A stretch of 64,000 nucleotides of DNA, taken from Alcanivoracaceae bacterium (GTDB taxonomy: Bacteria; Pseudomonadota; Gammaproteobacteria; Pseudomonadales; Alcanivoracaceae). Shown here one piece after another: positions 34,521 to 54,558 of the stretch. The notes below the pieces were generated by a model. It searched no databases. It had not been told where the DNA came from and worked only from the letters and a program-made list of their open reading frames with translations. The DNA lies in contig PAJO01000021.1 in assembly GCA_002706085.1 (NCBI GenBank), forward strand, positions 1 to 64,000, read 5' to 3'. Position 1 is the stretch's first letter; each line of letters begins with the position of its first letter. Made by a program: the position numbers and the translations under genes.

Positions 34521-35224
34521 TGCACGGTCTCCAGAATCTGCTTGATCTTGATTTCCGCGTTGGTAATTACCCGAAAGGTCACCCGTCGGCTGGCGCGGCC
34601 ATCCTCATTGCCTTGATCGTTCACAATCGGACGAGAGGAAGAGAAGCCTACCGCAGCCACATGAGCCTTGAGCCATTTCTGATAGGGGGCCACTTCGTCC
34701 AGGCCGTACACATACTCAAGCACATTACGGGTTCGCCCCTGGGAGAGCTGCATGTTCAGGAAGTAGGCATCCGAGGCACTGACGTGGCGATTCCAGACAC
34801 TGCTGGTATGGCCTTCAATGCGGACTTCATCAATTTCCTTGTTGAACCTGTCCAGCACCGTGATGTAACGAGGAAAAAAATCCGACAGCAGTTTTCGGTA
34901 ACGCCAGTTGATGGCCTCCTTTCCCTGCTCAAACAGGATATCTGGCGAATTGAAGGTAAAGGTGAGCGTATCCCGGTCAATATGGGCATTCCAGGTCTCA
35001 AGGTCCTTCTCAAACTCCCCGATGAGGGCATCATAGATGGCCACCTGCGTTTCCTGATAGGCCACCGCAATTTCCTTCACCTTGCGCTGCTCTTCCAGGG
35101 TGTTTCGCATCAGGGCAATGGCAATAAACAGGAACACCACCATCAGCCCCGCCATCAAATCCGATACAGATAGCCAATGGTGCTCTTCCTGTTCCGCAGC
35201 CCGGGTATTGAACAAGTCAGACAT
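34517..35224 (-). CDS. zorB: ZorB-like MotB/OmpA motor protein
   Basis: A 235-residue inner-membrane protein. One N-terminal membrane helix (about residues 24-42) is preceded by WLSVSDLMAGL, whose Asp matches the proton-binding Asp of MotB/ZorB. A linker with coiled coil is followed by an OmpA-like peptidoglycan-binding domain (about 105-230) with IEGHTSS, NMQLSQGRTRNVLEYV and GRASRRVTFRV. With ZorA it should form a proton-driven, cell-wall-anchored rotary complex that senses phage infection. Spacing to zorA is 10 bases. Confidence 0.85.
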   Translation of the reverse strand: MSDLFNTRAAEQEEHHWLSVSDLMAGLMVVFLFIAIALMRNTLEEQRKVKEIAVAYQETQVAIYDALIGEFEKDLETWNAHIDRDTLTFTFNSPDILFEQGKEAINWRYRKLLSDFFPRYITVLDRFNKEIDEVRIEGHTSSVWNRHVSASDAYFLNMQLSQGRTRNVLEYVYGLDEVAPYQKWLKAHVAAVGFSSSRPIVNDQGNEDGRASRRVTFRVITNAEIKIKQILETVQ

Positions 35225-35234
35225 GGTTCATACC

Positions 35235-36815
35235 TCAAGCATTGGTGATTGCGCGCATTTCACGGACCAGCTTCTGATAGTCCGCCGTGAACTGACCAGA
35301 AATTTGACCCAGCGCCCGGCCCATTTCCGACATCACGGTGCTGAGCTCTTTCTCCAATGAGGAGTCGATCATGCCGACCTGCTTTGTGACAGCATCCTTG
35401 GTATCCGACAGCGCATCCTCAACGGATTTACGCAGGCCAGCGAACACCCGTTGCGCCTCGTCGCTCTGCTTTTCTGCCATGCGTTCCAGATTGGCCTGGA
35501 ACTCCCGCTGGGCGTTACCCAGTTCGCTGGTCAGTTTCTGCCCCGCTTCCTTGAACTGCTTGCCGAGTTCCCCGTTCTGGGTGGTGATTTCCGCCATCAG
35601 GTTTCGGAAGTTGCTGTTCAGCTCGGTGACCAGATCGGAGAACTGCTGCTTCACTTCTTCACTGTTCTTGGCGATCACATCAGAACTAACCTGCAGTGAC
35701 TGATTGACGCGGGCACTGTTATCAACAAACTCCTGAGCCCCCTGCACGATGGCAGTCTGCAGCTTCTCACCGGCTTCCTGCATGCCACTGGAAATCTGCG
35801 TGGAGGCCTCCGTCACCCCCTTGAGGGTGGCGTCGATCTGCTCCTGAATCTGAGGCACCGCTTCTACAGCCTTGTCACGCATCTGGGCGAAGGATTCCAG
35901 ATGGCGGTCCAGCTCCTCAATCTGGTGCTGGTTTACCTCAAGCACATTGCGCAGTACCGCGAGGGATTCCGGGATTTTCTGGGTATCGCTGGCGATGGCA
36001 TTCACGGACGCTTCGGTCTGCCCAATGGCAGTCACACCCTGGGCATACTGCTCCACCATCTGGGCAATCTGCTCTTTGTACTTCTCCTGCCACTCCACCA
36101 GCTTGAAAACGGCCTCATTGAGCTGCTTGAAGTTCTCACCAAACTGCTCGGTCAGGTTATTGTTGAAATCCACAATTACCTGTTTCAGAGCCTCAATCAC
36201 TTGCTCCGTAGCCGACTTGGAGAGCATGTCGGCGAAGTCCTGCAGCTTGATCCACAATCGGGACTCGAATTCCTCAAAGGATTTCTGGTGCAGCTTGAAG
36301 TTGTCGTTGGTGTCAGAGCGGAGAAGCTTCATTTGCCCCGTGAGCGATGACTCGTCACCACTACCAATGGCTTCTTTCAGGGACACAATACCGTCACGCT
36401 GATCTTTCATGACGCCATACAACTCGGCGATACCGATACTGTCTTCATCGATGACCGAATCATCCTTCACGCTCAGCCAGCCAATGGTAATCAGCACCTT
36501 GTAAATCAGTGCCAGCAGCATACCCACCAGGCTAGTCAGGAAGGCGGTCTTCATCCCGGCAAGGAGCGATTCGATGCTGCCATCGATGTTTTTCACATCG
36601 AAGTCCAGCAACCCGGCCACAATACCGGTGAAGGTGCCCAGAATGCCCAGCGTGGTCAGCAGCGTGGGCGCATACTGGGTAAACCCGTGATGCTGGTTAC
36701 CCCGCTTCCACACGACAGCCATGCCAAAGACAACAACTAATACAGCGATGAAAATTTCGGTAAGCAACCCTGCCCCGATGGACGTAATTGCAAACTCAAT
36801 TGGAGAAGAAAACAT
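35235..36815 (-). CDS. zorA: ZorA-like MotA/ExbB motor protein with long coiled-coil tail
   Basis: A 526-residue protein. Membrane helices lie at about residues 14-36, 50-70 and 92-115, with GTFTGIVAGLL and SLLAGMKTAFLTSLVGMLLALI typical of MotA/TolQ/ExbB. After residue 130 it is a long coiled coil with many Gln/Glu-rich heptads, the cytoplasmic tail that distinguishes ZorA from MotA. The shorter tail than type I ZorA (about 730 residues) and the zorA-zorB-HNH order fit type II Zorya. It follows the patatin gene by 47 bases with a GAGG-type ribosome-binding site. Confidence 0.85.
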   Translation of the reverse strand: MFSSPIEFAITSIGAGLLTEIFIAVLVVVFGMAVVWKRGNQHHGFTQYAPTLLTTLGILGTFTGIVAGLLDFDVKNIDGSIESLLAGMKTAFLTSLVGMLLALIYKVLITIGWLSVKDDSVIDEDSIGIAELYGVMKDQRDGIVSLKEAIGSGDESSLTGQMKLLRSDTNDNFKLHQKSFEEFESRLWIKLQDFADMLSKSATEQVIEALKQVIVDFNNNLTEQFGENFKQLNEAVFKLVEWQEKYKEQIAQMVEQYAQGVTAIGQTEASVNAIASDTQKIPESLAVLRNVLEVNQHQIEELDRHLESFAQMRDKAVEAVPQIQEQIDATLKGVTEASTQISSGMQEAGEKLQTAIVQGAQEFVDNSARVNQSLQVSSDVIAKNSEEVKQQFSDLVTELNSNFRNLMAEITTQNGELGKQFKEAGQKLTSELGNAQREFQANLERMAEKQSDEAQRVFAGLRKSVEDALSDTKDAVTKQVGMIDSSLEKELSTVMSEMGRALGQISGQFTADYQKLVREMRAITNA

Positions 36816-36862
36816 GAAGCCCCACCCTCAAATAACGAAAACCAGACTCAACCCTATAGCAT

Positions 36863-37900
36863 CTACTTTTTAAGCCACTGCAAAGAATCCGCCATATTTG
36901 ATGCAGTTTTGACTAATTCAGCTTGTGATTTGTTACTCATACGGAAAGCAGCCAGACCATCAGCGACAGGTTCGATGCTTTCCTTGGCATCCTGATAGCC
37001 CTGTTCCATCCATTTAATAATGACGTCTTTCTCGAAAGTAAGCATATCGAGCAAGCCATTACGAGCTATCCCTCTCGGTCTTATTTCCAGGATTGTGCTA
37101 TCCGGAAACTTGTTACGATCCCAAAAGCTGCCATCTTGAAGGTGAGTAACAATTATATGGCTGCACTTCTCATGCTCAATCAAAGGCGTGATTGGTGTGT
37201 TCCCCTGAGCCTCACTGGCACCACCGAGCCCACCGTCATAATATTTCTTCCCGTCAATACGCTGCGCTTCATACGCCAGAGGGATTGCTGACGAAGCCAA
37301 TAGCGCTTTTCGTTTTTCATCTTCCGGCAGACTATTAATACGAACAAAACTTGATGATTTAGAATCCTTAATGTTTAGACCTGACTTAATAAACGCCATC
37401 AAATCTTTAATTGCTCCGTCACTCTCGTAAACCGAAACCCAGAACGGCAACCCCGAGTCTCTCTCTTCCAGTTTTGCATAGCGGTTTAAGATATCGACGC
37501 TGGGAGAGTTATCAAAAAAAACAGGATCGCCAATGTACTTGTGGTATTTATCAGGGAGGACATGCTCAAGATGTTTCGCGTTCATCGCAGCTGCCCTTCC
37601 CGCAGGGCCACCAAAACCTGCCAGACCGATCCGAATAATCAATGACAGGAAGGCCAGGCCATCCATTTTCAGCGGCGAATTATCGGACACTTCGTTCCAG
37701 ACTTTAGTGAGGGTTTTAGCAGCCTCGACTATATTATCCGAACTTGCCACGACTGACCCGTTCAGCGAACCGATGCTGGCACCGGCAATGGCGGCCGGCT
37801 GAATGCCTTGTTCAGCCAGATAGCGAACCACACCCGCCTGGTAGGCGCCCTTAGCACCGCCGCCAGACAGAACCAGACCCAACTTATTGGGTTGCGACAT
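36863..37900 (-). CDS. Patatin-like phospholipase
   Basis: A 345-residue lipid hydrolase. The oxyanion-hole motif SGGGAKGAYQ (about residues 11-20), nucleophile elbow GASIG (Ser at about 42) and catalytic Asp in YYDGGLGG (about residues 216-223) are all present, so it should be active. There is no signal peptide or membrane helix; it would act on the inner leaflet of the cytoplasmic membrane. A strong AGGAGG site precedes the ATG, which lies 17 bases inside the upstream RdcB-like gene. Its place between a dynamin pair and the Zorya motor suggests use as a membrane-damaging effector, by analogy with CapV-type patatins; this is an inference. Confidence 0.85.
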   Translation of the reverse strand: MSQPNKLGLVLSGGGAKGAYQAGVVRYLAEQGIQPAAIAGASIGSLNGSVVASSDNIVEAAKTLTKVWNEVSDNSPLKMDGLAFLSLIIRIGLAGFGGPAGRAAAMNAKHLEHVLPDKYHKYIGDPVFFDNSPSVDILNRYAKLEERDSGLPFWVSVYESDGAIKDLMAFIKSGLNIKDSKSSSFVRINSLPEDEKRKALLASSAIPLAYEAQRIDGKKYYDGGLGGASEAQGNTPITPLIEHEKCSHIIVTHLQDGSFWDRNKFPDSTILEIRPRGIARNGLLDMLTFEKDVIIKWMEQGYQDAKESIEPVADGLAAFRMSNKSQAELVKTASNMADSLQWLKK

Positions 37901-38810
37901 GCCGACCTCCTACTTCAAAAATCCGTGATAATTCGTCATAGATACTGATATTTGAGAACACAAACGGCATATCATTATCAGATTGAGGAGGCATATCGCT
38001 ATTCACAGCGAAAATAACCGGATCTAACAAGTTAGACTCCTGATCACTTACCAGGCAAAGCGCATCTTTCAGCAGCTGATCATCTGAGGACAACGTGGCA
38101 TAGAGAGACGCTCGATCAATCAATGCATTCGGTGACCGCCCTGTCAGATTAGACATGATATCGAGACAGTCATTTTTTAATTTTTTCATTACCGCGTCAG
38201 CAGTCTGCATGTGTTTGGCGTTACCCTCACCACTCTCTATCCACGATCCAAAATCACCATATTTAAGTCGTGTAAGAAGCATCCAAAGACTTTGCTCTGG
38301 CGAAAACACCCCTCCCTCTTTAGAAAAAATGCTTAACGCCAAGTCCTTTTCAGCCATCGCACTATTGTACAAATCGTGGTAATTCAGGCGCTGAGAAACC
38401 ATCTCTTCCATAGTTGCCACTGTTTCCGCCAGCTGATCCAGGCTAATCCGAATTTCGCCTACATCTTCCGACACGCCCTGCAGCCTCCCTGATATCAAGC
38501 TGACACCTTCCATGACATCGTTTAGAAAACTCTCATTTCTCGCCAGTCTTTTTTCGTTAGCAACAACATAGTCTTTGAGAAAGGACAAGCTTCCTTCGAT
38601 TCCTGAATCAATTCTCTCCTGACGCTTTGCCGTCGAGCCAGTCAAGCCATCGACGAACCTGGCCGTATACCCTTTCTCGATAACCTTGCGCTTTTCCCTC
38701 AAGTGATCAGAAATAACCTCGAACCCGTTTATAAAGTTAACGATGGCTTTTTCCTCCACATGGGGAAAATCCTCAACCAGTCGCTCCAAATCTGTATTTT
38801 CCGAAATCAT
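37884..38810 (-). CDS. RdcB/YjcZ-like partner of a dynamin-like protein
   Basis: A 308-residue soluble, mostly helical protein with coiled-coil tendency at about residues 60-145. No enzyme motif is visible. Its ATG overlaps the stop of the dynamin-like gene by 4 bases. In E. coli the dynamin-like crfC (rdcA, yjdA) is paired with yjcZ (rdcB), whose product has a similar size, and I assign this gene to that partner class mainly by order and size. It overlaps the patatin gene downstream. GC content is low compared with the methylase and helicase genes. Confidence 0.55.
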   Translation of the reverse strand: MISENTDLERLVEDFPHVEEKAIVNFINGFEVISDHLREKRKVIEKGYTARFVDGLTGSTAKRQERIDSGIEGSLSFLKDYVVANEKRLARNESFLNDVMEGVSLISGRLQGVSEDVGEIRISLDQLAETVATMEEMVSQRLNYHDLYNSAMAEKDLALSIFSKEGGVFSPEQSLWMLLTRLKYGDFGSWIESGEGNAKHMQTADAVMKKLKNDCLDIMSNLTGRSPNALIDRASLYATLSSDDQLLKDALCLVSDQESNLLDPVIFAVNSDMPPQSDNDMPFVFSNISIYDELSRIFEVGGRHVATQ

Positions 38811-41308
38811 AGCGATTCCTGATTCCCTGACACCATTGACTGAATACCCTGAGATGCAACAGAAATTCTCTTTATATGTGCGGAGTTACTGGCCTTTACC
38901 TCATTCATCATCAGCTTAATTTCAGAAATCACTTCCATGTTTTCCTCCTTGAGCTTTTTTGATTTATTTAGTCCCTCCTCGATTTCCTTGACGGAATCGA
39001 AAACACGAGAAAAAACATCATCAACTGCAGGAATGAATGCTTTGTTAAACTGGTCCTCAATCTGAGAGTCGACATCCTTATGAAATTGATCTGCGAGACG
39101 CTCAATACGTTCTATGTATTCGCCCATCTCAATTCTATATCTCACAATCTCCCTGGTTTCTTTTATCACCGTTTCTTCATAATCATCCCTATACCCAAAA
39201 CTCAAAACCTTTAGAGTCTTATGAACCCAACCCGATCTCCGATCTCTCCTAATCCTTTTACTTGGAACAGCCTCTTTGTCCTCATCCAGAGCATAATCGA
39301 CACCAGAAAATCCAACGCCATTATTTGACAAATCAATCGAAAAACTTTCAGCCATGCTGACGGTGAAGGAAAACCCCTTTATCTGCATCTCTTCTTCATA
39401 ACTTCTGCATATCTCTCCCAGCTCACCAAAAATATCATTTTCTATATCATCTCTTGTTTTATTTTCCATTTTATTGATGTACTCCTGAAACGAGTCAGCC
39501 ATCATGGAAAACATGGCAGCAACCACTTCATCCGCTTTATTGAGAAACTTATTGGCCGCCTCTTTATCCTCCCCAAAGTCCACAACACCAAACTCATTAT
39601 TCGCTCTACCACGAATCTCCATTCTAAGGTTTCTCAGATCGCTATTTATAATTTTCAATTCCCTCTGCGCCTTACGAGACCATAGAGAAGGGATGAACGC
39701 AGCCTTCCTCTCACCTTTCTTACTTCTCAGCTCTCCTTCCAGTTTCTCTAACAAGTCCTCTCTTTCTCTAAAAAATTCAGCACGCAGACTTTTTTTAACA
39801 TCAGCCACATGATCACTTAATGCAGATGAGGCATCTTCCCTGTACCCATACACATTTTTATTCTTAACATCTTCAAGTCTCACATAGGCCGACTCAACGG
39901 AATCACCAAGTCTCCTGGTTCTGTCAATACTTTCCTTAAGCGAAGCCATCTCCTGATCCAGCCCACCTCTCACAACCGTGGACAACCTATCCAACTTCCC
40001 TGCGTTGTCTTGAAGACGAGCCAATGCTGACCACAAACTATTCTCAGCAGCCATGGAGTAGGATTTCTCGAGCATATTACTTGTAAAAATGTCGTAACCT
40101 GATTTTCTTTTAAGGCGATCACATTTCTTTATTATCTGCTCATATTCCAGCTCCTCAATTTCATCTTCATCCAGCATTCCAAATGCCGCTTTGATGAAAT
40201 CCTTGTTCTGCTCATCTCGCACGAAGAGATTGAGATCAGTCTCTTGCTCGATCTGTTTTTTTACTTTTTCAACGATATAGGCATAGTGTGCTGAAACCGG
40301 AAACACCTCTTTCGCTGTAATGAAGTCATCGTCATCAAGACTGTCATTCAGCAATTTACTGGCAAGGTTTCTAGTCTGATCCTCATCAAGATCATTCTGT
40401 TTCTTCTCGTCAAACCTGTTTACTACTACAAATGAGCGATCCCTAAAGACATCCTTAATCCCTTTCAGTTGCCCTCTAATCTCGAAATCCTGCTCGGTAT
40501 TGAGCTGTGTATAGTTCATTACCAGAAGGACCATTGATGCGTTTTTTGCGATCTGCTCGGCAAGGACATGCTTCAGAACAGCGCTTTGCCCTGCTTCATT
40601 CGGACCCGGGGTGTCGAGCAACGCCAATGAACCTGAAGATATGCCCGCTGGCTTGTCAGCAAGACAACGAAACTCAATCTCTACCGTGGGAAGACGATCA
40701 ATATCAGAGAATTCTTCAATATACCGATCCACATCTATCTCAAAGCCGTCACTTCCGGCGAGACGAAATGCATCATTGATCAGTAGCAATGCCTGTTGGA
40801 CGTTTTCCTTCCCAGCGTAACGATCACAAATTTCGTTCAGGCCACTTTTTACGTTGAATAAGGCGGTATTGATTTTCGAATTATCATCTTCACCACTGTC
40901 AACCAAGCTAATTTTCGATCTCACCTCATCGACCAGTGCCTTTAGAGAGGCTACATTGTGCAACGTCATCACCGGTTCTTTCTGGCCAGGCTTGTGCCGA
41001 ATCAGCGTAGGAAGCGTGGTCATGCCCAATAGCCTGTGCGGCAGGACTTCTTCACCAATTAGCGCGTTGATAGTCGTCGACTTCCCCGCCTTCATGGTGC
41101 CGATGACTGCAATCGTCGACTCTAGTGCTTTCACCTTCTTTCTGTCGTTATCAAGAATTGATATCTGTCTTTCAAGTTCTGCAGGAGAAAGTGAGTCACC
41201 ATCATCCCCATGCCCCCAAATCGCCTTCTCATTCTTCAGGCGCCCCATCAAAGCCTGTTGCTTTTCGATTAGTGCATTAATTTCATCTTGCAGTGCCAGT
41301 AGTATCAT
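38807..41308 (-). CDS. CrfC/RdcA-like dynamin-family GTPase
   Basis: An 833-residue dynamin-like GTPase. The stretch VIGTMKAGKSTTINALIGEE (G1 at about residues 70-78) and, in two parts, LPTLIRHKPGQKEPV and LLDTPGPNEAGQ (G2/G3 region) are very close to E. coli CrfC. VNRFDEK provides the G4 motif. Long helical stalk regions follow; no obvious membrane helix is seen. The ATG at 41308 with an AAGGA site is preferred over an upstream TTG at 41341. Bacterial dynamins bind and remodel membranes, and CrfC also links to the sliding clamp and cyclic-di-GMP control. The low GC suggests a different origin from the methylase upstream. Confidence 0.85.
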   Translation of the reverse strand: MILLALQDEINALIEKQQALMGRLKNEKAIWGHGDDGDSLSPAELERQISILDNDRKKVKALESTIAVIGTMKAGKSTTINALIGEEVLPHRLLGMTTLPTLIRHKPGQKEPVMTLHNVASLKALVDEVRSKISLVDSGEDDNSKINTALFNVKSGLNEICDRYAGKENVQQALLLINDAFRLAGSDGFEIDVDRYIEEFSDIDRLPTVEIEFRCLADKPAGISSGSLALLDTPGPNEAGQSAVLKHVLAEQIAKNASMVLLVMNYTQLNTEQDFEIRGQLKGIKDVFRDRSFVVVNRFDEKKQNDLDEDQTRNLASKLLNDSLDDDDFITAKEVFPVSAHYAYIVEKVKKQIEQETDLNLFVRDEQNKDFIKAAFGMLDEDEIEELEYEQIIKKCDRLKRKSGYDIFTSNMLEKSYSMAAENSLWSALARLQDNAGKLDRLSTVVRGGLDQEMASLKESIDRTRRLGDSVESAYVRLEDVKNKNVYGYREDASSALSDHVADVKKSLRAEFFREREDLLEKLEGELRSKKGERKAAFIPSLWSRKAQRELKIINSDLRNLRMEIRGRANNEFGVVDFGEDKEAANKFLNKADEVVAAMFSMMADSFQEYINKMENKTRDDIENDIFGELGEICRSYEEEMQIKGFSFTVSMAESFSIDLSNNGVGFSGVDYALDEDKEAVPSKRIRRDRRSGWVHKTLKVLSFGYRDDYEETVIKETREIVRYRIEMGEYIERIERLADQFHKDVDSQIEDQFNKAFIPAVDDVFSRVFDSVKEIEEGLNKSKKLKEENMEVISEIKLMMNEVKASNSAHIKRISVASQGIQSMVSGNQESL

Positions 41309-41389
41309 TTTTCTTCCTTGTGCTTTATCTCTGGTTGCCAATTATTAGCCATGAACTATCTTTTTTTGATTACAGGTTAACTTTGATGA

Positions 41390-44300
41390 TCAACTCTCAT
41401 TATTAGAAAATATCTCCCAGGCCATGCGGTAATCCTCTTCCCGATCCGGTTTGAAGAAGGGGGCGTGGTATTGGATGGTGCGTTCGGTGGGGCCGCCGGG
41501 GAGGGTGTCATCCATGCAGGTTTTGGTGACGGTGCCTTCGGTGAGGTGCTGGATGTCTTCCCAGCCCAGGGCGATGCCGGTTTCGGTGCGATCGGGGGTG
41601 TGGAGGGCGTAGTGGGTGCCTTCCTTGAGTTCCTTGTTGCTGGCCTTGCGGGGCAGTCCGACGCCGACCAGGCCCTTGCTGGGGGTGAAGACGATGCGGC
41701 CGGTCTGGTCGTACCAGGTTTCGGCTTCGTACTGGCGCATGACCGGGAACTGCACCCGGTAGATAGTGAGCAGTTCTTCCAGGGTGAGACCCAGGGCCTG
41801 GGCGACCAGGACGTCGATTTCTACCAGGGCCTGACGGCGGGCATAGTCGGTGCGCAGGGCGTTGTTTCTTTGCCATTCCGGGGAGAGGTTGGCGAAGAAA
41901 TCCTGCGGCAGGGGAGCGATGGATTCGCGGGTGGCCCAGTGTTGTTGGCGGAAGCTTTCTTGCCAGTTGGATTGCCAAAGCTCGGCGTATTGGTTTGTGA
42001 TGCTCACCAACGCCATTGAACGAACATGAAGTGCATCACGCACCCGTCCATCGGTTAATACCGGCAGCTGGTTAATCAAGGACGTGTTGGCATGCCCCAT
42101 ACCCGTACTTTTCACTCGATAATCCAGAACCACTGATAGCGTCATACTGAAGTAATCCAGCATGGTTTTTTCAGATTTAAATGCCGAACATAGGCAGGTG
42201 TTAATGTGTGCCGCACCTTTTGGGATTACCGTTGTAATCAGGGTCCTCTCTGAGGATGGACCGATCATTTCCCTGTTTACCAACCGATAATAATCCGTCA
42301 CCAATCGTTCCCGGTGTTCACCCTCTTCTACCCAGGGCACACGGGGGGTTCGGTCGCGGTAGGTGGTGGATTCGCAGGCGGGGACGTAGTTTGTGCGTGG
42401 CAGGTAGTCGTCCGGCAGGGTTTGCAGGTCGAGGATATCGTAGTGGCTATTTTGAGTGCACTCTACTCGCGGGGTTTTGTAGAACGGGCTACCCACGAAG
42501 AAATGGGGGCCGGAAAGCACCCATTGCTCAGATTCCGCTGAAAATTGCGTATCTCGCTTAATCGTTCCGTCCCGCTGAGCGTAGGTTTCATCAAACATTA
42601 CTGTTGAGAAATACTGGCTTTTTAGATCACCCAAACGACGAGGGTACGCGGCGAACTTTTCCAGTACGTTGGTGAGCTGTCGTGCATGCAAGGCCGGCAG
42701 GCGGGCTTCCAGGGCATCGGTTCCGGCTTCGTCGTAGAGCTGGGCGAACAGAGCTAGTTCGTGCTGGCCTATTTCGATGATGCGGTCACGGTGGCCGTTG
42801 GTGTTCCATAGCACTTTACTACCGCCTGCTTCTTCGCTGCTCTCATACTTAATACCCGGCACTTCTCCTTTTCCATTGTGAGCAAAAGATTCATCAATGG
42901 TTTTTGGCAGAAACACGTTAGACATCGATGTGAATTCCGGCACGTCGAATATTGGTCCATAGACATTGATGCCAAACCTTGTTTGATCATGTACCTCAGC
43001 AAAGAGAAAGAATGCATTCGCAAACTGAAAGTGTCCGCGCAACCGCCGATACACCTCCCGCCGGAATCCCCCACCTTTGGGATCATCGTAGATACCTTCG
43101 GGATGTAAAAATCCGCTCACTCCCTGCCCGTTAACATTTACCCAGGCCCGTGGCAGGAAGCACTTATATAAATTGGTCTGCACGCCTTTTAGCTGTGGGT
43201 AGTTCTGTGTGCCATTTAAAAATGCTTGCGAGCCCTCCGCTTCCGCCAGCTCCGCAAACCAGGCTTGCTCCAGCTCCGGACTACGCTCAAAGGCAGCTTC
43301 CCGCTCATCGGTCAACTGCTTGGCGCTGAGCTTATGCAGCACAAACGCCGGGTTGTAATCCCCCAGCACCCCACCTTCCTGCCATTCCACCTTGCGCCAG
43401 GGCGGGTTCCCCAGGGTGATGTCGAAGCCGCCACGGTTGGCAAACAAATCCGAGAACGCCAGTTCCCAGTGGAAGAAACGGTAGTGTTCGCCCAACTCGT
43501 TGGCCATTTTCAGGGTGGCGAAGACCGGGTTCCTGAACAGCTTTTCCAGGTTGAGTTCGCCCCGGGGGGTGCTGACGGCCTGGGCGGCGCGGGTTTCTTC
43601 GCGCAGAGTTTGCTGGGGGGCTTCCGATGCGAAAAGGTCTTCTACCGGTTTTTCAAACAGCCCCGCTTCCTGCTGTGATGGGGCAGCATTGTCTTCTCCC
43701 TCTGGCATCAGGCTTTCCTGTTCGGCGGCGAACTGGAAGGTGCCGGCGCTGTTGAGGATGGTGTTGAGGTCGAACAGCCATTTCTGGCGGTCGGGCAGGG
43801 CATCCACCTTGTCCAGTGGCCAGAACCAGAGGGCGCACCAGTAGTCCATGGCCAGCTTAAGACGGCGATAGGGGGAGGCAATGCGGGCATGGGTATTGAA
43901 GATACCGGTGGTTCGGATGTCGTCTTTTTCGCGGGTGCTGGTGTGGTGTTCCTGCACCTGTTCCTGGCCCCAGAGGGGGTAGGTGTCTTCGGTGCGTTTT
44001 CTGTCCTGGGTGAGCATCTGGGTGTGCTCGCGCCAGAGGCGGTCTACGGCGGCGCTGAGGTCCTGGAGGATGCGGATTTCGCTGTCGTCCAGGGGGGCGC
44101 AGAAGTCCTTTTTCCAGGCTTTGATTGTTTTGAAGGCATCCGGGCGCAGTTGTTTGGCGACCTTGTCGTTGTAGCCGACCATGCCGGGGTCGGGGAGGAG
44201 GAAGTGGTAGATTTCGTTTTCTTTTCTTGGGCCGGAGTCTTTTTTATTCGGCTCGCCTTCGGCATTGCCGGGGTTCGCTTGCAGGCAAGCTCCTACAGCA

Positions 44301-46495
44301 GCATCTGAATTAAGGGACTCTGGTGAGAGACGTCTTGGGGCGTTGTTGTACCAGAGGCCTTCTTTGGGTTGTTTCTTGAGGGCGATGGTGGGGTAGACCT
44401 CGCGGCGGGCGCCGATGAGGCTGTTGCCGGTGAACAGCTGGTAGCCGAACCAGGGCACGGTGTGGCCGCCGCTGAGGGCGTTGAGCCAGAGGGAGACTTC
44501 GGCCAGCTCTACGGCGATGGGGTTGAGATCGACGCCGTAGACATTGTGATCGGCGATGTGCATTTTGACCCGCTGGAGTTCCTGCTGGTAATCCTCGTGG
44601 GGGATGCGCCGTCCGAGCTCCTGCTGTTTGCGGGTGAGGTAGGCTTCGCTGAGCTGGTTGACGGCTTCGTTCAAGAAGGCGGCGCTGCCCATAGCCGGCT
44701 CGCAGACGGTGAGGTTGAGGATGTCGTCGGCGGTGACGTCGTCTGTCAGCCGTTCCTTGAGGGTGTATTTCACCAGGCTCTTGGTGAGCACTTCCGGGGT
44801 GTAGTAACTGGCGGACTTTTCCCGGTCGCGCCCGGCCATACGGTAGATGAACTTGCCTTTGGGGTGCAGGCGCAGGCTCTTGCGGCCTTCGCTGTCCCTG
44901 TCGTAGACCCGTTCCTGGTCGTCGAACTCGTCCAGTTGTTCGCGGGTGACGAAGTAACCGGTGTCCAGCTCGTCGGGGTTGATGTTGTTGCCCTTGGGGG
45001 CGACTTCGTAGAGGTCTTCGGTGGCGAAGAAGCCACGGTAGCTGAGCAGGGCTTCGTACACGGCACCGAGCTGGTTAATGCCGAGCTGGGTGTAGCTGAC
45101 GCGGGCACGGCGCTTTTTCCCCTTCTGTTTTCGGGTGAGCGACATGCTCTCAATGACCTGCTGCAGGGTGACGTTGCTGAACACCACCTTGTTGAGCAGG
45201 GGCGTTTTGGCCGGGTCGAACAGGTGGCTGTCGAGGCCCTGCAGGGTGAAGGCGTTGCCGGTGCTTTCGTGGTACTGGTCGACCTGGCGGCTGATCTGGT
45301 GGCCGTTGTAGATGAGGCCGAACATGCGTTGCAGGCTGTCGTGGAAGTAGCGGCCCTGCTGGCTGGCTTCGGTGGTGAGGCGCACCATTTCCAGGTCGCG
45401 CAGGCTGTCGAGGCTGTAACCCTGACGCCAGGTGTCGTCATCCGGCAGGTAGCCCAGCTCCGGGCGGGCTTCGATGTAGAACAGGAACAGGATGCGGTAC
45501 ATGTAACGCAGGCATTCCCGGGAGAGCTGGCCGGCATCGAGGGCGTTGCTGCCGGTGTAGATGCCTTCCTTGCGGTCGCGGGCCTGTTCGATGAGCTGGC
45601 TGGCCGCTTCGTTGCCGAGCAGTTCGATGGCCTGGCGCAGGGCGTACTTCAGGTCGTCGGAGACGGCGAAGGCGTGTTTGTGGCTGTTTTCGTCGAGGCT
45701 GTCGAGGCGGCTCTGGCCTTCGCGGGGGGCCAGGCTGTCGCGGTGCAGCAATACAGCGGTGGCCTTGATGGTCTTGTCGTCGCGGCGACCGAGGATCTCT
45801 TCCCAGTCGAAGCGCAGCATGCGGTTCTGGGACCATTTGTAGCGGTCGATGAGGATGCCCTGACGGTCGCTGATAAGCAGCACCCAGCGGGGCGGGTTTT
45901 CATGGTGCGGATTCTGGCGGAAGACGGCCTCGTTGAGGATGCTGTACCAGTCGCTGCCCTTGAGTTTGTCGTGATGGGGGCCGGCGCCGACGAACTGGCT
46001 TTTGTGCAGGGTGAGGGAGAGCGGGTCTTCGCCTTCGTTGTGTTGATCCAGGGCGCCAAGCACCCAGAGCTGATCGCCCAGGGCAGCCAGCACGGGGAGT
46101 TCCGTGTTGGCGGCAATGGTGCGGTTTTCCGGCTGGTAGGGGATGCCGAGTACGGTGAGCAAGAATTCAAAGAATTCCCGCTGCAGGGCGATGCGCTGTT
46201 CGACGGTGCGCTCACTCTTGAGTTTGTGGCGCAGGGCAAAGTAATCCTGGTTCAGGTTGCGCAGGGACCGGTGGGGGCTGCTGAAGGCAAAGCCGCCGGC
46301 GGCCTCGTTGATGGTTTTGCCTGCGGCTTCGGCTTTTTCGCGCTGGGCCTGGCGGGCGGCATCTTCTTCGCTGTCCCAGGCCTTGATGGTATCGGCAAAG
46401 TCACCCTGAAACACTTCGGCCAGGTAGTGGGCACTGAAGAATTCGTTGTCGTTGGTGAGGCCGATAAAAGTGGCGGCGCTGTCTTGTACTGCCAT
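41390..46495 (-). CDS. Giant Eco57I-type DNA adenine methylase (possible restriction-methylation fusion)
   Basis: A 1701-residue protein. SAM motif I CEPAMGSAAFL is near residue 602, followed by VYGVDLNPIAVELAEVSLWL. The catalytic motif IV NPPW (GNPPWRKVEW) is near residue 1030, giving N6-adenine methylase chemistry. The gap of about 430 residues between these motifs is unusually long and holds low-complexity linkers plus a REP-derived insert. The N-terminal 550 residues are unassigned; the C-terminal 600 should hold target recognition. Patches of lower GC at about 42.0-42.3 and 42.8-43.2 kb fall there. It follows the 967-aa SNF2 gene by 27 bases, as in DISARM-like methylase/helicase pairs, but neither class name is proven. 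Confidence 0.82.
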   Translation of the reverse strand: MAVQDSAATFIGLTNDNEFFSAHYLAEVFQGDFADTIKAWDSEEDAARQAQREKAEAAGKTINEAAGGFAFSSPHRSLRNLNQDYFALRHKLKSERTVEQRIALQREFFEFLLTVLGIPYQPENRTIAANTELPVLAALGDQLWVLGALDQHNEGEDPLSLTLHKSQFVGAGPHHDKLKGSDWYSILNEAVFRQNPHHENPPRWVLLISDRQGILIDRYKWSQNRMLRFDWEEILGRRDDKTIKATAVLLHRDSLAPREGQSRLDSLDENSHKHAFAVSDDLKYALRQAIELLGNEAASQLIEQARDRKEGIYTGSNALDAGQLSRECLRYMYRILFLFYIEARPELGYLPDDDTWRQGYSLDSLRDLEMVRLTTEASQQGRYFHDSLQRMFGLIYNGHQISRQVDQYHESTGNAFTLQGLDSHLFDPAKTPLLNKVVFSNVTLQQVIESMSLTRKQKGKKRRARVSYTQLGINQLGAVYEALLSYRGFFATEDLYEVAPKGNNINPDELDTGYFVTREQLDEFDDQERVYDRDSEGRKSLRLHPKGKFIYRMAGRDREKSASYYTPEVLTKSLVKYTLKERLTDDVTADDILNLTVCEPAMGSAAFLNEAVNQLSEAYLTRKQQELGRRIPHEDYQQELQRVKMHIADHNVYGVDLNPIAVELAEVSLWLNALSGGHTVPWFGYQLFTGNSLIGARREVYPTIALKKQPKEGLWYNNAPRRLSPESLNSDAAVGACLQANPGNAEGEPNKKDSGPRKENEIYHFLLPDPGMVGYNDKVAKQLRPDAFKTIKAWKKDFCAPLDDSEIRILQDLSAAVDRLWREHTQMLTQDRKRTEDTYPLWGQEQVQEHHTSTREKDDIRTTGIFNTHARIASPYRRLKLAMDYWCALWFWPLDKVDALPDRQKWLFDLNTILNSAGTFQFAAEQESLMPEGEDNAAPSQQEAGLFEKPVEDLFASEAPQQTLREETRAAQAVSTPRGELNLEKLFRNPVFATLKMANELGEHYRFFHWELAFSDLFANRGGFDITLGNPPWRKVEWQEGGVLGDYNPAFVLHKLSAKQLTDEREAAFERSPELEQAWFAELAEAEGSQAFLNGTQNYPQLKGVQTNLYKCFLPRAWVNVNGQGVSGFLHPEGIYDDPKGGGFRREVYRRLRGHFQFANAFFLFAEVHDQTRFGINVYGPIFDVPEFTSMSNVFLPKTIDESFAHNGKGEVPGIKYESSEEAGGSKVLWNTNGHRDRIIEIGQHELALFAQLYDEAGTDALEARLPALHARQLTNVLEKFAAYPRRLGDLKSQYFSTVMFDETYAQRDGTIKRDTQFSAESEQWVLSGPHFFVGSPFYKTPRVECTQNSHYDILDLQTLPDDYLPRTNYVPACESTTYRDRTPRVPWVEEGEHRERLVTDYYRLVNREMIGPSSERTLITTVIPKGAAHINTCLCSAFKSEKTMLDYFSMTLSVVLDYRVKSTGMGHANTSLINQLPVLTDGRVRDALHVRSMALVSITNQYAELWQSNWQESFRQQHWATRESIAPLPQDFFANLSPEWQRNNALRTDYARRQALVEIDVLVAQALGLTLEELLTIYRVQFPVMRQYEAETWYDQTGRIVFTPSKGLVGVGLPRKASNKELKEGTHYALHTPDRTETGIALGWEDIQHLTEGTVTKTCMDDTLPGGPTERTIQYHAPFFKPDREEDYRMAWEIFSNNES
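44271..44298 (-). repeat. REP element read in frame inside the methylase gene
   Basis: On the minus strand CTGTAGGAGCTTGCCTGCAA and the following GCGAACCCC match the REP units between jetB and jetC. Here the element is translated as VGACLQANP, and the long frame continues through it. It lies in the low-complexity linker between SAM motif I and NPPW, where an insert would be tolerated. Confidence 0.85.
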
Positions 46496-46522
46496 GGGGC
46501 GTTGTCCTGTTTAACCTGTTCG

Positions 46523-49426
46523 TTAGCCGTGGGCGCGGGTGAAGGCGGCAATGATCTGGATGTAGGGCACCGGCTCGATGGTGAGGGTGTCGCTGACCCA
46601 GGTCTGGTAATCATTGAAGATCCGGTCAATGCGGCTGGTGCGCTCTTCCCTTCTGGCGGCCTTGAAGTGCTCTGCCTGCTGGGAGCCCTGCAGTTGTAGC
46701 TCCAGCTGGGTGAGCTGGCGATCCTTGAGGGCAGCCAGTTCGGCCAGTTTTTCATCCAGTTGCGGCTGGGTGGCTTCGGTAAAGGCCTGCTGGCGTTGCT
46801 GCATTTCCCTGCGGGCGGCCTGAATGACCGGCTGGCGCAGGGCTTGCAGTGCTTCGAGGTTTACCGGCTGGGCGCGGTTGGGCAGTTTGCTGTCCAGTTG
46901 CAGGGCCTGTAGCCAGTCACGGGCGGGCAGCACTTCTGTAACGGCTCCGCCCTGGCAGCGAATGGCGAACCATTCCCAGATGACCGGGTGGGCCTTGCGG
47001 TTGGGGATCAGTCCGCTGACCAGGAAGACGCTTTCCTCCGGCTGGAGCTGCTGTTTGACGGCTTCGGTATCGGGCAGGGCCAGCACCGGGGCGCTGTGGC
47101 GCGCCACCTGGGCGAGCAGTTTGTCCTGCAGCCACTGGATGGCCGGGTGCTGGGGCCAGAGGTAGTGGAGCTTGGGCCAGGCGTTTTCGTCCTGGCGGCT
47201 GCGGCGGATTTCCTGCTCGAAACGGGGCTTGTCGGCGGTGAGCACCAGGGTGCCGTTGTCCGGGCTGATTTCCGGGGGCAGGAAGCGGAAGCGGTAGTCG
47301 AGATCATCCGGGGGCGTGAGGGTGAGCGTCTGGCGTTCGTTATTGACGCTGACGCTGACCTGGTTGCGCTCGCGGTTGATGGCTTCCAGGGCCTGACGGG
47401 CGAATTCGTAATCGTTGGGGAAGAGGCTGAAGTCTTCTACGGTGTGCTGCTCTGCCTGCTCCGGGGTTTTCGGCTGGCTGGCTTCCGGGTTGAGGAACAG
47501 GGACAGCAGATCATCTCCTTCGTTGCTGTCTTCCGGCTGGTAGTGCTGATCGAAGTCGTCCGCGTTCATGCCTTCGGCCATGGCCTCTTCGGTGAGCCTT
47601 TCTTCCTGCTCACTGTCGTGGACCTTCATGAAGGTAGCCGGGTCGCCGATGTTCTTGTAGGCCTGCTCGTCTTTTTCCTTGAGGATTTCCAGAATGCGCA
47701 GATCCCCTTTGACCGTGGGATTATCGCTCTGGTTGATCAGGTAGGTGATGATCGGGGTCTGTTCCTGACCATAGCGGTCTACCCGGCCGTTACGCTGCTG
47801 GAACACCATGAGGGACCAGGGCAGGTCGAAGTGGACCAGGCGGTGAGACAGGTAGTGCAGGTTGATACCTTCCGAGGCCACATCGGAACAGAGCAGCACG
47901 CGCAGTTTCGATTCGGGCTTGCCGAATTCTTCCACGATACTCTGCTGCTCCACGTCGCTCATGCCGCCGTGGAGGATCTGCACCGAATCCGCCTTGAGCT
48001 TCATGTCACCGGCCAGCTGGTCGTTTAGCCATTTGAGGGTTTCGATGCGCTCACTGAAGATGACCAGGCGATCTTCGCTGTCGGTTTTCTTCCAGCCGTA
48101 GTCTTTGCTTTTCAGCAGCTTGACCAGGGACTGGTATTTGCTGAAGGCCGCCGGGGTGACATTGCGCAGGGCCAGCAGCAGGGATTTCAGACTCTGGATT
48201 TCGTGCTGTTCGTCTTCGCTGACCTGGGCTTTTTTCTGCAGTTTGGCGATGCGCTGCTGCACGGAAATGTCCGCCGCTGCCGGCGAGCTGAAGATGGCTT
48301 TCTGCAGGCCGATGCGGACCAGCTGGCCGTTCTTGGTCTGGCTGTGTTCGCCCCGGTAGGTAAAGGGCACATCCAGCAGGGCCTGGTAGGCGGCTTCCTC
48401 TTCCGGGGAAGCGTTCATGTGGATGTCCTTGACCACGCGCTCCTTGAATTCCTGCTGCACCTGATCGCGAATATCTTTCTTGAAGCGGCGAATCACCAGC
48501 CCCTTGTCGCTGAAGTCTTCGCGGGCGTAGTCATCCGGATCGCTGATGGCGGTGGGATCAAGCATGTTCATCAGGCTGGCGAAGGATTTTGCCTTGCCGT
48601 CATGGGGGGTGGCCGACAGCATGATGAGCGTGTCTGAACGGCCCGCCAGCAACTGTGCCAGGCGGGCGCGCTGGGAGCTGCTGCCCCGCTCTGCCACGTT
48701 GTGGCATTCGTCGATGACGATGATGTCCCAGTAGGCCTGCTCCAGGTGGCGGCGGTATTCGTTGTCCTGCTTGAGGGTGTCGATGGAGATAATCGACTTG
48801 TCGTAATAGTAGAAGGGGTTGTGGTTGCCGGGGATGTTGTTACGCACCCGCTGCAGGCCCTGGGAGTCGAGCCGGGTGAGCGGGATGGTGAAGCGGTTCC
48901 ACATTTCCTTCTGGAACTGGGTCATCATGCTTTTCAAGGTGAGCACAAGGATACGCCTGCCCCGGCCACGGCGCATGAGTTCGGTCATCAGGATGCCCGC
49001 TTCCAGGGTTTTCCCCAGGCCGACGGCATCGGCAATGAGAATACGCTGGCGGGGCTGGTTCAGTGCCTGGAGGGCAGGATCAAGCTGGTAGGCCACCGGG
49101 TCCATGGCGGCCTTGTGGCCAAGATGGATGCGCTGATCCGCCGGGGTTATCTGGCGCAGCTGGGCTTCGATGAACAGGCGGCTTTTCTCAAAGCCGGGGC
49201 TCATGTCCTGCTCGAAACGGGTTTCGGCTGGGTCCAGTACCTGAATCGCCTCGGCCTCTTCCTCCAGCCGGCTGAGAAAACGCGCACTCTTGCCGTTAAC
49301 CAGCTCGGACAGGCCATCCACGGTGAGGATATAGCCGCCATCGTCGCTGGGATCCGCACGGCGAACGATCCACTCGCAATCGCGGATGACGACGCGGGCG
49401 CCGGGGGCGTAGAGGGTACTGCTCAT
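46523..49426 (-). CDS. SNF2/RapA-type helicase (967 aa)
   Basis: A 967-residue superfamily 2 translocase. Walker A ADAVGLGKTLEAGIL is near residue 135, motif II VIDECHNVAERG (DECH) near 238, and LSATPHDGKAKSF follows. The C-terminal RecA domain has SDVASEGINLHYLSHRLVHF and QQRNGRVDRYGQ (about 546). An acidic linker and a helical C-terminus of about 300 residues follow. It is encoded 27 bases before the giant methylase and 48 bases after a second SNF2 gene, so it likely supplies DNA translocation for the methylase module, as DrmD does in DISARM. The specific name is not assigned. Confidence 0.85.
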   Translation of the reverse strand: MSSTLYAPGARVVIRDCEWIVRRADPSDDGGYILTVDGLSELVNGKSARFLSRLEEEAEAIQVLDPAETRFEQDMSPGFEKSRLFIEAQLRQITPADQRIHLGHKAAMDPVAYQLDPALQALNQPRQRILIADAVGLGKTLEAGILMTELMRRGRGRRILVLTLKSMMTQFQKEMWNRFTIPLTRLDSQGLQRVRNNIPGNHNPFYYYDKSIISIDTLKQDNEYRRHLEQAYWDIIVIDECHNVAERGSSSQRARLAQLLAGRSDTLIMLSATPHDGKAKSFASLMNMLDPTAISDPDDYAREDFSDKGLVIRRFKKDIRDQVQQEFKERVVKDIHMNASPEEEAAYQALLDVPFTYRGEHSQTKNGQLVRIGLQKAIFSSPAAADISVQQRIAKLQKKAQVSEDEQHEIQSLKSLLLALRNVTPAAFSKYQSLVKLLKSKDYGWKKTDSEDRLVIFSERIETLKWLNDQLAGDMKLKADSVQILHGGMSDVEQQSIVEEFGKPESKLRVLLCSDVASEGINLHYLSHRLVHFDLPWSLMVFQQRNGRVDRYGQEQTPIITYLINQSDNPTVKGDLRILEILKEKDEQAYKNIGDPATFMKVHDSEQEERLTEEAMAEGMNADDFDQHYQPEDSNEGDDLLSLFLNPEASQPKTPEQAEQHTVEDFSLFPNDYEFARQALEAINRERNQVSVSVNNERQTLTLTPPDDLDYRFRFLPPEISPDNGTLVLTADKPRFEQEIRRSRQDENAWPKLHYLWPQHPAIQWLQDKLLAQVARHSAPVLALPDTEAVKQQLQPEESVFLVSGLIPNRKAHPVIWEWFAIRCQGGAVTEVLPARDWLQALQLDSKLPNRAQPVNLEALQALRQPVIQAARREMQQRQQAFTEATQPQLDEKLAELAALKDRQLTQLELQLQGSQQAEHFKAARREERTSRIDRIFNDYQTWVSDTLTIEPVPYIQIIAAFTRAHG

Positions 49427-49474
49427 GGGTTGTTGTCCTGTGCTATCGCATGCAAATTCTGGTTTTTCATCTTC

Positions 49475-52303
49475 TTACTCCGCCCCTTGCGGCTTACCCT
49501 TCCAGCCCGCCGTTAGCCACTGCATCTGGTCTGGCAGCAGGGTCTGAGAGCATTGCTCAGCAAGGTATTTTTCGACGCAGGCGTTGGCCAGCTTGAGGGC
49601 TGCCTTTCGCTGTTCCTTGTCTGTGTCGACCTGCTGTGACGGTGAGCATGGCTGCATCAGCCACTGGCTGATCCAGGGCGGATTGAGGGTAGCTGCGCCG
49701 TTATCCAGTGCCACCATGGCCAGCTCCTGACGGGCGCGCCGACCACGATCATTCTGCCAGCGGGCCACGGCAACAATGATGGATTCTGACTGGTAGCCGG
49801 CACCCATTACTGAAGTGCCGCCAAAATCATACTTGCGCGCCTGCTTGATGAGGTTTTTGAAAAGCCAGTTATCCATGTTCATGGGTAACAGATCTGGCTT
49901 TTTGGCAGCCAGCGTTCGATCAAAGGTCAGCCCGAAGCGGCTGCGTGAAACGCCCATGGATTGCATGGCCGCTTCGCCGAGCCTGATCTGCCAAATGAGT
50001 CCGTTGTGGGTTTTTTCCAGAATCTCGAATCCGGCAATACTTGCCATGCCCTCTATGAAGGCCTGCAGGTGATCCAGGGTGATGACCAACTCTCCCGAGA
50101 CCTCTTTGCTGTCCAGATTCACCGCATACTTGAACAAATCATGCTGTTCTGCCGCGGCATTTTTTGCGCGATCCAGCGCTTCGTTAATGCGCTCACTGGT
50201 TCGCTCCATCTTATCACTGGCGGCTTGTGCCAATACTTCTTCAATATCGACCAGATCCGCCAGCTCACCCAAAACGTCCTCTTTGATAGCATCGTTGAAT
50301 TCATGCTTTTGGACACTTGCCATATCCTGGGCCACGGCTTCCAGGCGGTCATAGAGAATACTGAGCACCTGCTCGTCCGCACTGTCGGACTGATGGACAT
50401 TGAAGACCACGACCCGCTTCTTTTGGCCATAGCGATAAAGCCGCCCTACACGCTGAACCAGCCGCATGGGGTTCCAGGGCAGATCGTAGTTCACCATGAT
50501 GTGGCAACGATGCTGAAGGTTGATGCCTTCGCCGCCCGCCTCGGTGGACACGAGGAACTGGGCACCGTCCTCTTCTTCAAAGGTGGCAATAGCTTCCCGC
50601 CGCTCTTGCATGTCCATGCCACCATGGATAAGAACACAGCTACCGGGACCAAAGCGATCATCCAGTGCCGCTTTGACCCATTGCTGGGTACTCCGATACT
50701 CGGTGAAAACGAGGATTTTTTCCCGGGGGTTTTCCTTGATAACGATTTCCACCAGGCCATTCATAAAGGCGTGGCGCTTGGCGTCATTTGCCTCCAGGTC
50801 TGCAGCCTTTTCGATCAACTCTGCAAGGATTTTTTCCTCACCAGGAAAGAAGGGTGATGCCTCCGTCTTCCGGGTCGCCGCTTCTTCCTGCTCCCCCTGA
50901 TAACGCTCGTCATCATAGGGACGATCCATACTCGCCTCTTCCCCCTTCAGGCGCTCAAGCCGTCTTACCAGAGCAGCGTGAATGGCCGCCACGCTGGATG
51001 CAGCCAGCTTGCGATAGACCGTCATTACAAAGCCGATGGCTCGGCCTGTGTTATTTCCACTCTTCTCCTGCGCCGCATAGCCTTTGCGAAGATAAGCACG
51101 AAGTTCTTTATCAAACTCCACGGCATCTTCCGAAAGCGGAACATCAATCTGGCGTACGGTTTTTCCATGAAACAGGAAATTGCCGTCCATATCAGTTACA
51201 TCTGCCTTGTAATTGCGGATGATCATGTCGCCGATAATTTCGGGGTTAATCTTCAGGGTGCGGATTTCGCTTTTTCTTTCCGGGGCCAGAAGTTCCAGCA
51301 AGGCTCCAAAGCTGTCCTGCTTGCCTTGATGAGGAGTGGCGGTCAATAGCAACACATTCTTTGAGCGTTGCCGCAATTTCTGGAGCATGCTGTAGCGCTG
51401 ACTGGCATCGAGCCTGTTGCCATACTCCCGACGACTGAGTCGGTGAGCTTCGTCAACGATGATCAGATCCCAGTTATCAGCCTGCAAGAGTGTCTCGAGG
51501 TGCTCATCCTGCTTTAGGCGATCCATGGAGCCTATAACATGGTCTTCCTTTTTCCAGTCCCGGGGATCGTGAATCTGGAATTCATCGCCGTAAATTCTGA
51601 AACGCTCGAAACCGAATTTTCCGTACAGCTCTTCTTTCCACTGGCGTGTGAGGCCTGCCGGGGTGATGATGAGGACGCGCTCAGCCTCCCCTTTTGCCAT
51701 AGCCGCATGAAGCAGCAGCCCCACCTCAATGGTCTTACCCAGGCCCACGTCATCGGCAATCAGCCAGTTGTAATGACCTGACCCAATGATGTGATGCACC
51801 AAGTGAATCTGGTGTGGCAGCGGATCTACATCAAAGGTCGCCAGGGCCCCTGTGTTTTCGTTCCATAGCTGGATAGCCCAGGAAAGCAGGCGAAGACGCT
51901 GGCGCTCTTCATCACCGGCTACGTTGAACTTCCCCAGGGTAAAGCCATGCAAGGCACCACGGACTTGTCTTAATCGCTGCCAGGGCAGCCAGACTCGGTG
52001 GTTGTTTTCCTGAAATTCGACCAGCAGCTGGGTATGTCCGGCCACTTCCCGGGTCGTACAAACAACACCTGTGCCAAGTGAATCCTGGGTCGCCCTCACA
52101 GGCCGGTGCTCGACCTCTGCCCCACGCATGAAACCCGAGACAAGATCGCCCTCAGGATGCATGACATCCGCCTTTCGCTGCACCCAGAACACCTTGACTC
52201 TTGCCGGCACGTCTGCAGACACTTTCTTGACGACACCAATGTCCCTGACATCCTGACTATCCTTATGGCGGACAATTGCTCCTTCCACTACCGGGATTAC
52301 CAT
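49475..52303 (-). CDS. SNF2/RapA-type helicase (942 aa)
   Basis: A 942-residue superfamily 2 translocase distinct from its neighbour. Walker A ADDVGLGKTIEVGLL is near residue 184, motif II VDEAHRLSRREYG near 282, TATPHQGKQDSF next, and the second domain has STEAGGEGINLQHRCHIMVN and QRVGRLYRYGQKKRV (about 618). The N-terminal 120 residues are beta-rich and unassigned. Its ATG lies 7 bases inside the acidic TPR-like gene, so translation is coupled. Two SNF2 translocases in tandem beside one methylase is unusual; they are diverged enough that a recent duplication is unlikely. Confidence 0.85.
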   Translation of the reverse strand: MVIPVVEGAIVRHKDSQDVRDIGVVKKVSADVPARVKVFWVQRKADVMHPEGDLVSGFMRGAEVEHRPVRATQDSLGTGVVCTTREVAGHTQLLVEFQENNHRVWLPWQRLRQVRGALHGFTLGKFNVAGDEERQRLRLLSWAIQLWNENTGALATFDVDPLPHQIHLVHHIIGSGHYNWLIADDVGLGKTIEVGLLLHAAMAKGEAERVLIITPAGLTRQWKEELYGKFGFERFRIYGDEFQIHDPRDWKKEDHVIGSMDRLKQDEHLETLLQADNWDLIIVDEAHRLSRREYGNRLDASQRYSMLQKLRQRSKNVLLLTATPHQGKQDSFGALLELLAPERKSEIRTLKINPEIIGDMIIRNYKADVTDMDGNFLFHGKTVRQIDVPLSEDAVEFDKELRAYLRKGYAAQEKSGNNTGRAIGFVMTVYRKLAASSVAAIHAALVRRLERLKGEEASMDRPYDDERYQGEQEEAATRKTEASPFFPGEEKILAELIEKAADLEANDAKRHAFMNGLVEIVIKENPREKILVFTEYRSTQQWVKAALDDRFGPGSCVLIHGGMDMQERREAIATFEEEDGAQFLVSTEAGGEGINLQHRCHIMVNYDLPWNPMRLVQRVGRLYRYGQKKRVVVFNVHQSDSADEQVLSILYDRLEAVAQDMASVQKHEFNDAIKEDVLGELADLVDIEEVLAQAASDKMERTSERINEALDRAKNAAAEQHDLFKYAVNLDSKEVSGELVITLDHLQAFIEGMASIAGFEILEKTHNGLIWQIRLGEAAMQSMGVSRSRFGLTFDRTLAAKKPDLLPMNMDNWLFKNLIKQARKYDFGGTSVMGAGYQSESIIVAVARWQNDRGRRARQELAMVALDNGAATLNPPWISQWLMQPCSPSQQVDTDKEQRKAALKLANACVEKYLAEQCSQTLLPDQMQWLTAGWKGKPQGAE

Positions 52304-54496: not shown

Positions 54497-54558
54497 GGGA
54501 TCGCCTGCAGGCGGGCTCCTACGGGAGGGTGGTTCGCACCTCGAGAGGTGCTCCTACC
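54497..54558. repeat. REP pair (BIME) in the gap before the HEPN gene
   Basis: Two GTAGGAGC-type units on the minus strand, CCTGCAGGC-cored at about 54498-54523 and CCTCTCGAGG-cored at about 54531-54558, start 2-3 bases after the stop of the HExxH gene. The remaining gap up to 54341 contains no gene. Confidence 0.8.

Follow-up and report, generated by a model that had tools for sequence, protein, structure and literature searches.

A GTAG-type REP unit read in frame in the linker of a DNA methylase from a defence island

Rickettsia palindromic elements (RPEs) are palindromic repeats that are read in frame within protein genes. The main text of the 2013 survey by Di Nocera et al. (BMC Genomics 14:522; PMC3733652) cites them as earlier intragenic cases, files RPE-4 and RPE-6 of R. 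conorii under the CGTC superfamily, and reports intragenic REPs of the GTAG type in several species, some of them gammaproteobacteria (Xanthomonas, Thioalkalivibrio). As described there, a REP of the GTAG-1 superfamily bears an unpaired GTAG-type tag with the bases GW at one end, and Table 1 of that paper sets the limits at a stem of 5-13 bp, a loop of 2-20 nt and a 3-nt tail. The same text places different REPs at about one recB site in two Xanthomonas species, cautions that many of the REPs found at gene starts could in fact be extragenic, and treats intragenic REPs as possibly neutral in flexible linkers or loops, with some speculation on effects in repair genes. For Pseudomonas fluorescens SBW25, the work on REPINs and RAYTs (PMC3116915) counts the commonest 16-mers at 1,067 places, 14 of which overlap genes.

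Here we describe a REP unit within a large DNA methylase gene, found in the window, which is the whole stretch of 64,000 nucleotides that was analysed and to which positions refer unless a contig or locus is named. Our preferred explanation, to which we assign a probability of about 0.87, is that a single GTAG-1-type REP of the host was inserted into a disordered-linker stretch of the methylase, that the reading frame was kept and that the insert was tolerated. A repeat that is normally extragenic would thus have turned into protein sequence without wrecking the gene. The case is a clean one because relatives free of the insert have shorter linkers, a relative of the same genus has the insert, and 15 other genomes with a homologue are free of the REP. 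The general picture is unchanged, in-frame REPs having been surveyed in 2013, and the initial annotation overstated matters in calling cases beyond Rickettsia less noted in REP-rich gammaproteobacteria, given the intragenic GTAG REPs that PMC3733652 reports.

The methylase gene and the REP unit within it

The features of the gene are as follows:

41390-46495, minus strand: type IIG / DrmMI-like DNA methylase gene with the REP in frame, from the open reading frame and its translation (1701 codons)
44213-44326, minus strand: whole variable linker of 38 codons (SPESLNSDAAVGACLQANPGNAEGEPNKKDSGPRKENE), from the protein alignment; net gain of 60 bp against 18 codons
44275-44296, minus strand: REP core GTAGGAGCTTGCCTGCAAGCGA, read as VGACLQA; exact member of a 72-copy family
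44250-44273, minus strand: tail CCCCGGCAATGCCGAAGGCGAGCC, the 24 nt after the REP; not repeated in the genome

The gene is a single, uninterrupted open frame. Its product matches the PADLOC profiles REase_MTase_IIG (E 4.5e-264) and DrmMI (E 6.3e-57) and the Pfam family Eco57I (E 3.1e-11), with a weak match to N6_Mtase; together with the amino-methylase motifs I and IV (NPPW), these family profiles predict a methylase of the type IIG / DrmMI-like group. A sequence search found no relatives of the methylase with a solved structure. The gene belongs to a defence island at 33420-52303 that also holds zorE, zorB and zorA (type II), a patatin phospholipase, a YjcZ-like protein, a dynamin-like GTPase and two SNF2 helicases, and the same window carries a Wadjet system, jetABCD, at 12087-19641 (PADLOC), with jetB at 13717-14445 and jetC at 14822-18517.

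From 44296 downwards, the minus-strand codons GTA GGA GCT TGC CTG CAA GCG AAC CCC encode VGACLQANP in the frame of the methylase. The codons, with the exact match to the repeat family, bear out the initial annotation, which had this peptide encoded through a REP unit on the minus strand of the 1701-codon frame. Its placing of the unit in a linker between SAM motif I and NPPW is likewise correct (motif I, EPAMGS, at residue 599; the REP at 734-740; NPPW at 1030), as is its statement that the unit matches those between jetB and jetC, where copies begin at 14527, 14683 and 14784. The element had been drawn from 44250 to 44310; a REP is indeed present in that interval, but the REP proper takes up only about 24 bp, and the tail at 44250-44273 finds no match other than itself in the genome with up to 3 mismatches.

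The core is laid out as a GTAG tag, the bases GA, a 6-bp stem (GCTTGC/GCAAGC) with a 2-nt loop (CT), and a 3-nt tail (GAA). GTAG GA directly precedes the stem, as in GTAG-1 REPs (many sister copies have GTGG instead), and the lengths of stem, loop and tail fall within the GTAG-1 limits of Table 1 in PMC3733652. With the GTAG tag, the core holds one stop codon, in one of the six frames, and with the GTGG tag it holds none; an in-frame outcome for the GTAG-tagged core thus mainly needs a length divisible by three. The methylase copy has no inverted partner within 110 bp and is hence not a REPIN, in which two inverted REPs form one unit. A degenerate inverted second REP in the 3' flank was considered and rejected, as 1197 of 2000 shuffles scored equally high.

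The REP family of the host genome and its candidate mobiliser

With up to 3 mismatches, GTAGGAGCTTGCCTGCAAGCGA has 72 matches in the 3.78-Mb host genome (37 forward and 35 reverse, the methylase copy included), and the reversed control pattern has 0. Five copies are exact, that of the methylase among them. When all 72 copies are stacked, the conserved part runs over positions of about -2 to +22 (~24 bp), with little conservation outside it, and inverted partners (up to 6 mismatches) are present at 39 of the 72. The family extends, at up to 2 mismatches, to 16 of the 17 genomes of the genus set, which includes that of the host. Six sister copies lie in the window:

14527-14548, plus strand: sister REP copy between jetB and jetC, extragenic; 3 mismatches to GTAGGAGCTTGCCTGCAAGCGA
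14683-14704, plus strand: sister REP copy between jetB and jetC, extragenic; 1 mismatch
14784-14805, plus strand: sister REP copy between jetB and jetC, extragenic; 2 mismatches
19816-19837, minus strand: sister REP copy; 3 mismatches
21465-21486, plus strand: sister REP copy; 3 mismatches
54501-54522, minus strand: sister REP copy; 3 mismatches

A clear coding signal on both sides was found for only one of the 72 copies, that in the methylase, and overlaps with gene starts are possible besides. The family is accordingly dispersed in many copies and mostly extragenic, as GTAG-1 REPs are, a division into intragenic and extragenic that was made for the 72 copies of the host genome alone, those of G012 (a second genome of the genus, described below) and of the other genus genomes having been counted. 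For G012 the count is 227 copies at up to 2 mismatches. One other ORF above the threshold spans a pair of REPs (L111); it was rejected as an intragenic case by eye, the pair sitting between two plus-strand reading frames, with a gene start and a gene end on the other strand around it. For ten long ORFs that span other REP copies, Pfam gave nothing at E up to 0.01. The genus also contains longer repeats that start with the tag, GTAGGAACCGGAG...AACAGCCGMAGGCTGGCCCGAAGGGTGAGC... (L138-L144), and a search of L138, L139, L141 and L145 against Rfam gave no match at the gathering score.

Matches to PF01797 were obtained at seven places in the host genome. One of these RAYT-type matches, at G000:C54:37908-38135, is flanked by REP dimers at 37631/37676 and 38333/38379, so that the host does possess a RAYT-type gene with this REP on either side; the gene and its two dimers together span G000:C54:37631-38400 (L096:3432-4201). 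The ORF of this match includes VVMPDHFHWLM, which we take to be the HUH-type motif of RAYTs. Judged from this arrangement, the PF01797 gene between the dimers is the likely mobiliser of the REP family, and a REP-associated tyrosine transposase (RAYT) of this kind would have mobilised the copy now in the methylase.

Linker comparison, selection and predicted structure

The set of homologous genes numbers 86, the window gene and 85 further loci, taken from a collection that included 80 of 369 relatives; a single genome accounts for both L151 and L152. Two loci without a motif I ORF (L063, L090) were dropped, L009 and L011-L013 were not entered, and plasmid homologues were left out (274 records, all below 60% identity). 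Linker length could be parsed in 41 of the 86 genes, including values for L047 and L068 that look like anchor artefacts and a long one for L083 that is unlike the others.

Alignment of the 16 close homologues gives 13 rows, all distinct, with a linker of 18 residues and no REP. The remaining three are those of L023 (22 residues, no REP), L017 (32 residues, with another REP) and L010 (44 residues, with the REP of the window type and 6 extra codons that hold a second CTGTAGGA). A fourteenth row of 18 residues, L147, is identical to L024 and contributes no new sequence. Against these 18 codons the window linker is longer by 60 bases, about 24 of which belong to the REP; the other 36 are neither repeated nor explained by it. 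In the 15 other genomes that bear a homologue, most of them drafts or MAGs for which no completeness is given, GTRGGAGCTTGCYTGCAAGCGA has no match with up to one mismatch, and the peptide VGACLQA is absent from the methylase in each of them.

The initial annotation had proposed that an insert-free linker in relatives would prove a recent insertion, and that the same peptide in homologues from REP-free genomes would make it ancestral protein sequence. The first is what the alignment contains, and the second was encountered in none of the 15 genomes. That the peptide is ancestral and resembles a REP by chance is scarcely credible: no point in its favour was found, and against it stand the exact match of 22 nt to a family of 72 copies with a control of 0, the shorter, peptide-free linkers of 13 distinct close homologues, and the absence of the REP type from the 15 homologue genomes. 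The exact REP, the shorter linkers and the genomes without this REP type together show that the peptide derives from the REP, and on this comparison of sequences the insertion is fairly recent. One GTAG-1-type unit of the host, with its flank, would have entered the disordered-linker stretch of this defence-island gene after the split from the insert-free relatives and before the window gene parted from that of G012, adding 60 bp (20 codons) to the linker and leaving the frame as it was.

G012, a one-contig assembly, is the only other of the 17 genus genomes that matches most of the gene, and the REP that it shares with the window (locus L010) was found there independently, at the same position of the methylase. 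Its gene, at G012:C1:3795735-3800905 (L010, L013), is broken by one TGA and one TAG; the window copy is intact. These two stops are the one point in favour of a faulty gene or assembly, a pseudogene or chimaera in which the REP is not truly translated. We consider this very improbable, since the window gene stays open through all 1701 codons, since its codon usage to either side of the REP is that of coding sequence (scores of 0.23 and 0.29, the mean of the gene being 0.27), and since a REP at the same position recurs independently in a genome of a single contig.

The window gene and L010 are sisters in the tree (support 100/100), which suggests that the insert is older than the divergence of the two. 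Nucleotide identity between G012 and the window is nonetheless a mosaic along the gene, from 0.98 down to 0.68, a pattern that may reflect exchange of the segment between lineages and not inheritance. Possible, if doubtful, is a wider form of this idea, in which the methylase gene was acquired from a donor in the REP-rich genus with the REP already in place, or the segment came by gene conversion. Besides the mosaic, the patchy occurrence of the gene speaks for it: a long homologue is present in 2 of the 17 genus genomes, and among 390 genomes sampled from the order only 6, the host's own included, have a match at E up to 1e-100. Yet the REP is of a type found in 16 of the 17 genus genomes, which would put the insertion in the genus or in a close REP-bearing one in any case; such a history alters where the REP entered the gene, not what entered it.

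The methylase gene is under purifying selection. Over codons 0-1099, a range that leaves out the codons past 1099 where identity falls, dN/dS between the window gene and L010 is 0.10 (0.08 without the two linkers), and because the L010 gene is now broken this low value bears only on past selection and on the window copy. If the insert predates the split of the two, selection maintained the protein once the insert was in place. A fragment of 600 residues (541-1140) was modelled with AlphaFold from 46 rows, with a mean pLDDT of 81 and a pTM of 0.84. Two internal segments fall below a pLDDT of 50, fragment residues 195-209 (protein residues 735-749) and 381-423 (the second linker). The first of these coincides with the REP peptide (fragment residues 194-200), and a low pLDDT is in part what one expects at a place that few rows of the alignment fill. 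The model, of low confidence at this point, would make the REP-coded stretch a disordered, flexible linker.

The initial annotation had called the element domesticated. Genuine domestication would mean that the REP codons, or a hairpin in the mRNA, are selected for an effect on the methylase (linker length, contact with a partner) or on translation. The insert is indeed found in two diverged genes, and the sole change in the core between the window and L010, CTG to TTG, is synonymous and lies in the loop, leaving the stem intact; at this divergence, however, few changes are to be expected over 24 bases. The linker has 18 residues and no REP in 13 distinct close homologues, the REP stretch is modelled with low confidence, and the dN/dS of 0.18 for the first linker is based on just 5 changed codons. 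Domestication is thus unlikely, and the evidence (dN/dS of about 0.1, low pLDDT) fits tolerance in a disordered loop instead. On the single-insertion reading that we prefer, the insert is probably tolerated and neutral, given the model, and would have persisted through a loop tolerant of changes in length, neutrality and a working protein both being our inference. The REP insert would then mark one loop of this family of large methylases as permissive.

Repeats in related linkers and comparison with described systems

In L017, an Oceanospirillaceae MAG, a different GTAG REP, GTAGGAGCGACGCCCCCGTCGCGA, occupies the same linker and frame as the REP of the window, near codon 759 of its ORF (L017:4582-6360). 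With up to 3 mismatches this type has 14 matches in its own genome, the place in the gene counted, and none in the genomes of the window, G012 or L014; the L017 genome, in turn, has no match to the window REP type with up to one mismatch. Two insertions in one linker, one in the window/G012 lineage and one in L017, would be the simplest reading, and their independence rests mainly on the difference in REP type because the tree does not fix the place of L017.

The second linker of L010 and of L014 (a Marinobacter MAG) contains an identical in-frame stretch of 49 bp (with QAQRRTAEGWPEGRA). This stretch is flanked by arms resembling CCCTCTCC and is absent from the window at residues of about 925-960. 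Copies of it at 2-3 mismatches occur in 5 of the 17 genus genomes, G012 included; the L014 genome has it in the gene only, and six other homologue genomes that were tested have no copy.

Across the 86 genes, only the window, L010 and L017 combine a GTAG tag and GGAGC with a perfect stem of 6 bp and a tail of GA. Searching for hairpins with stems of at least 7 bp, a cut-off above the 6-bp stem of the methylase REP, gave 2 matches against 1 in the reversed control, and with 6-bp stems there were 12 matches in the 86 genes against 16 in the reversed controls, no excess overall. Variable linkers were rejected as hot spots for palindromes, with no excess of inverted repeats of at least 9 bp (2 in 6,894 low-occupancy codons against 52 in 131,964 others). 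In L079 (Thauera propionica), an in-frame GTAG-like palindrome at about codon 915, in another linker, was not counted as a REP because, with up to 2 mismatches, it matches its genome at a single place, that of the gene, and one match is likewise obtained with the reversed control.

It is tempting, though rather unlikely on balance, to regard the disordered loops of this methylase family as landing sites tolerant of repeats, in which one and the same linker took up host-specific REPs on at least two independent occasions, and L010 and L014 carry another repeat in their second disordered loop. Were this so, linkers of defence methylases would vary recurrently through the insertion of repeats.

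Set beside the described systems, the methylase REP is a good example of a phenomenon already described in other bacteria. Among the records listed in a literature search of titles and the starts of abstracts, none reports a REP in such a methylase. The main text of PMC3733652 contains no occurrence of methylase, methyltransferase or restriction; its supplementary list of target ORFs (Additional file 3) lies outside both searches. Akin to the RPEs, the unit is a palindromic repeat in frame inside a protein gene; the tags differ, CGTC there and GTAG here, and the present family has one clear intragenic case among its 72 copies. The REPINs and RAYTs of Pseudomonas, as presented in PMC3116915, find their counterpart in the inverted partners at 39 of the 72 copies and in the RAYT-type gene between REP dimers, whereas the methylase copy is a singlet that lies inside a gene and has no inverted partner. 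Closest are the intragenic GTAG REPs described in the main text of PMC3733652: there, as here, a GTAG-tagged REP resident in the host lies in a long ORF and encodes extra residues, the difference being that the present case is a single REP in a DNA methylase of a phage-defence island.
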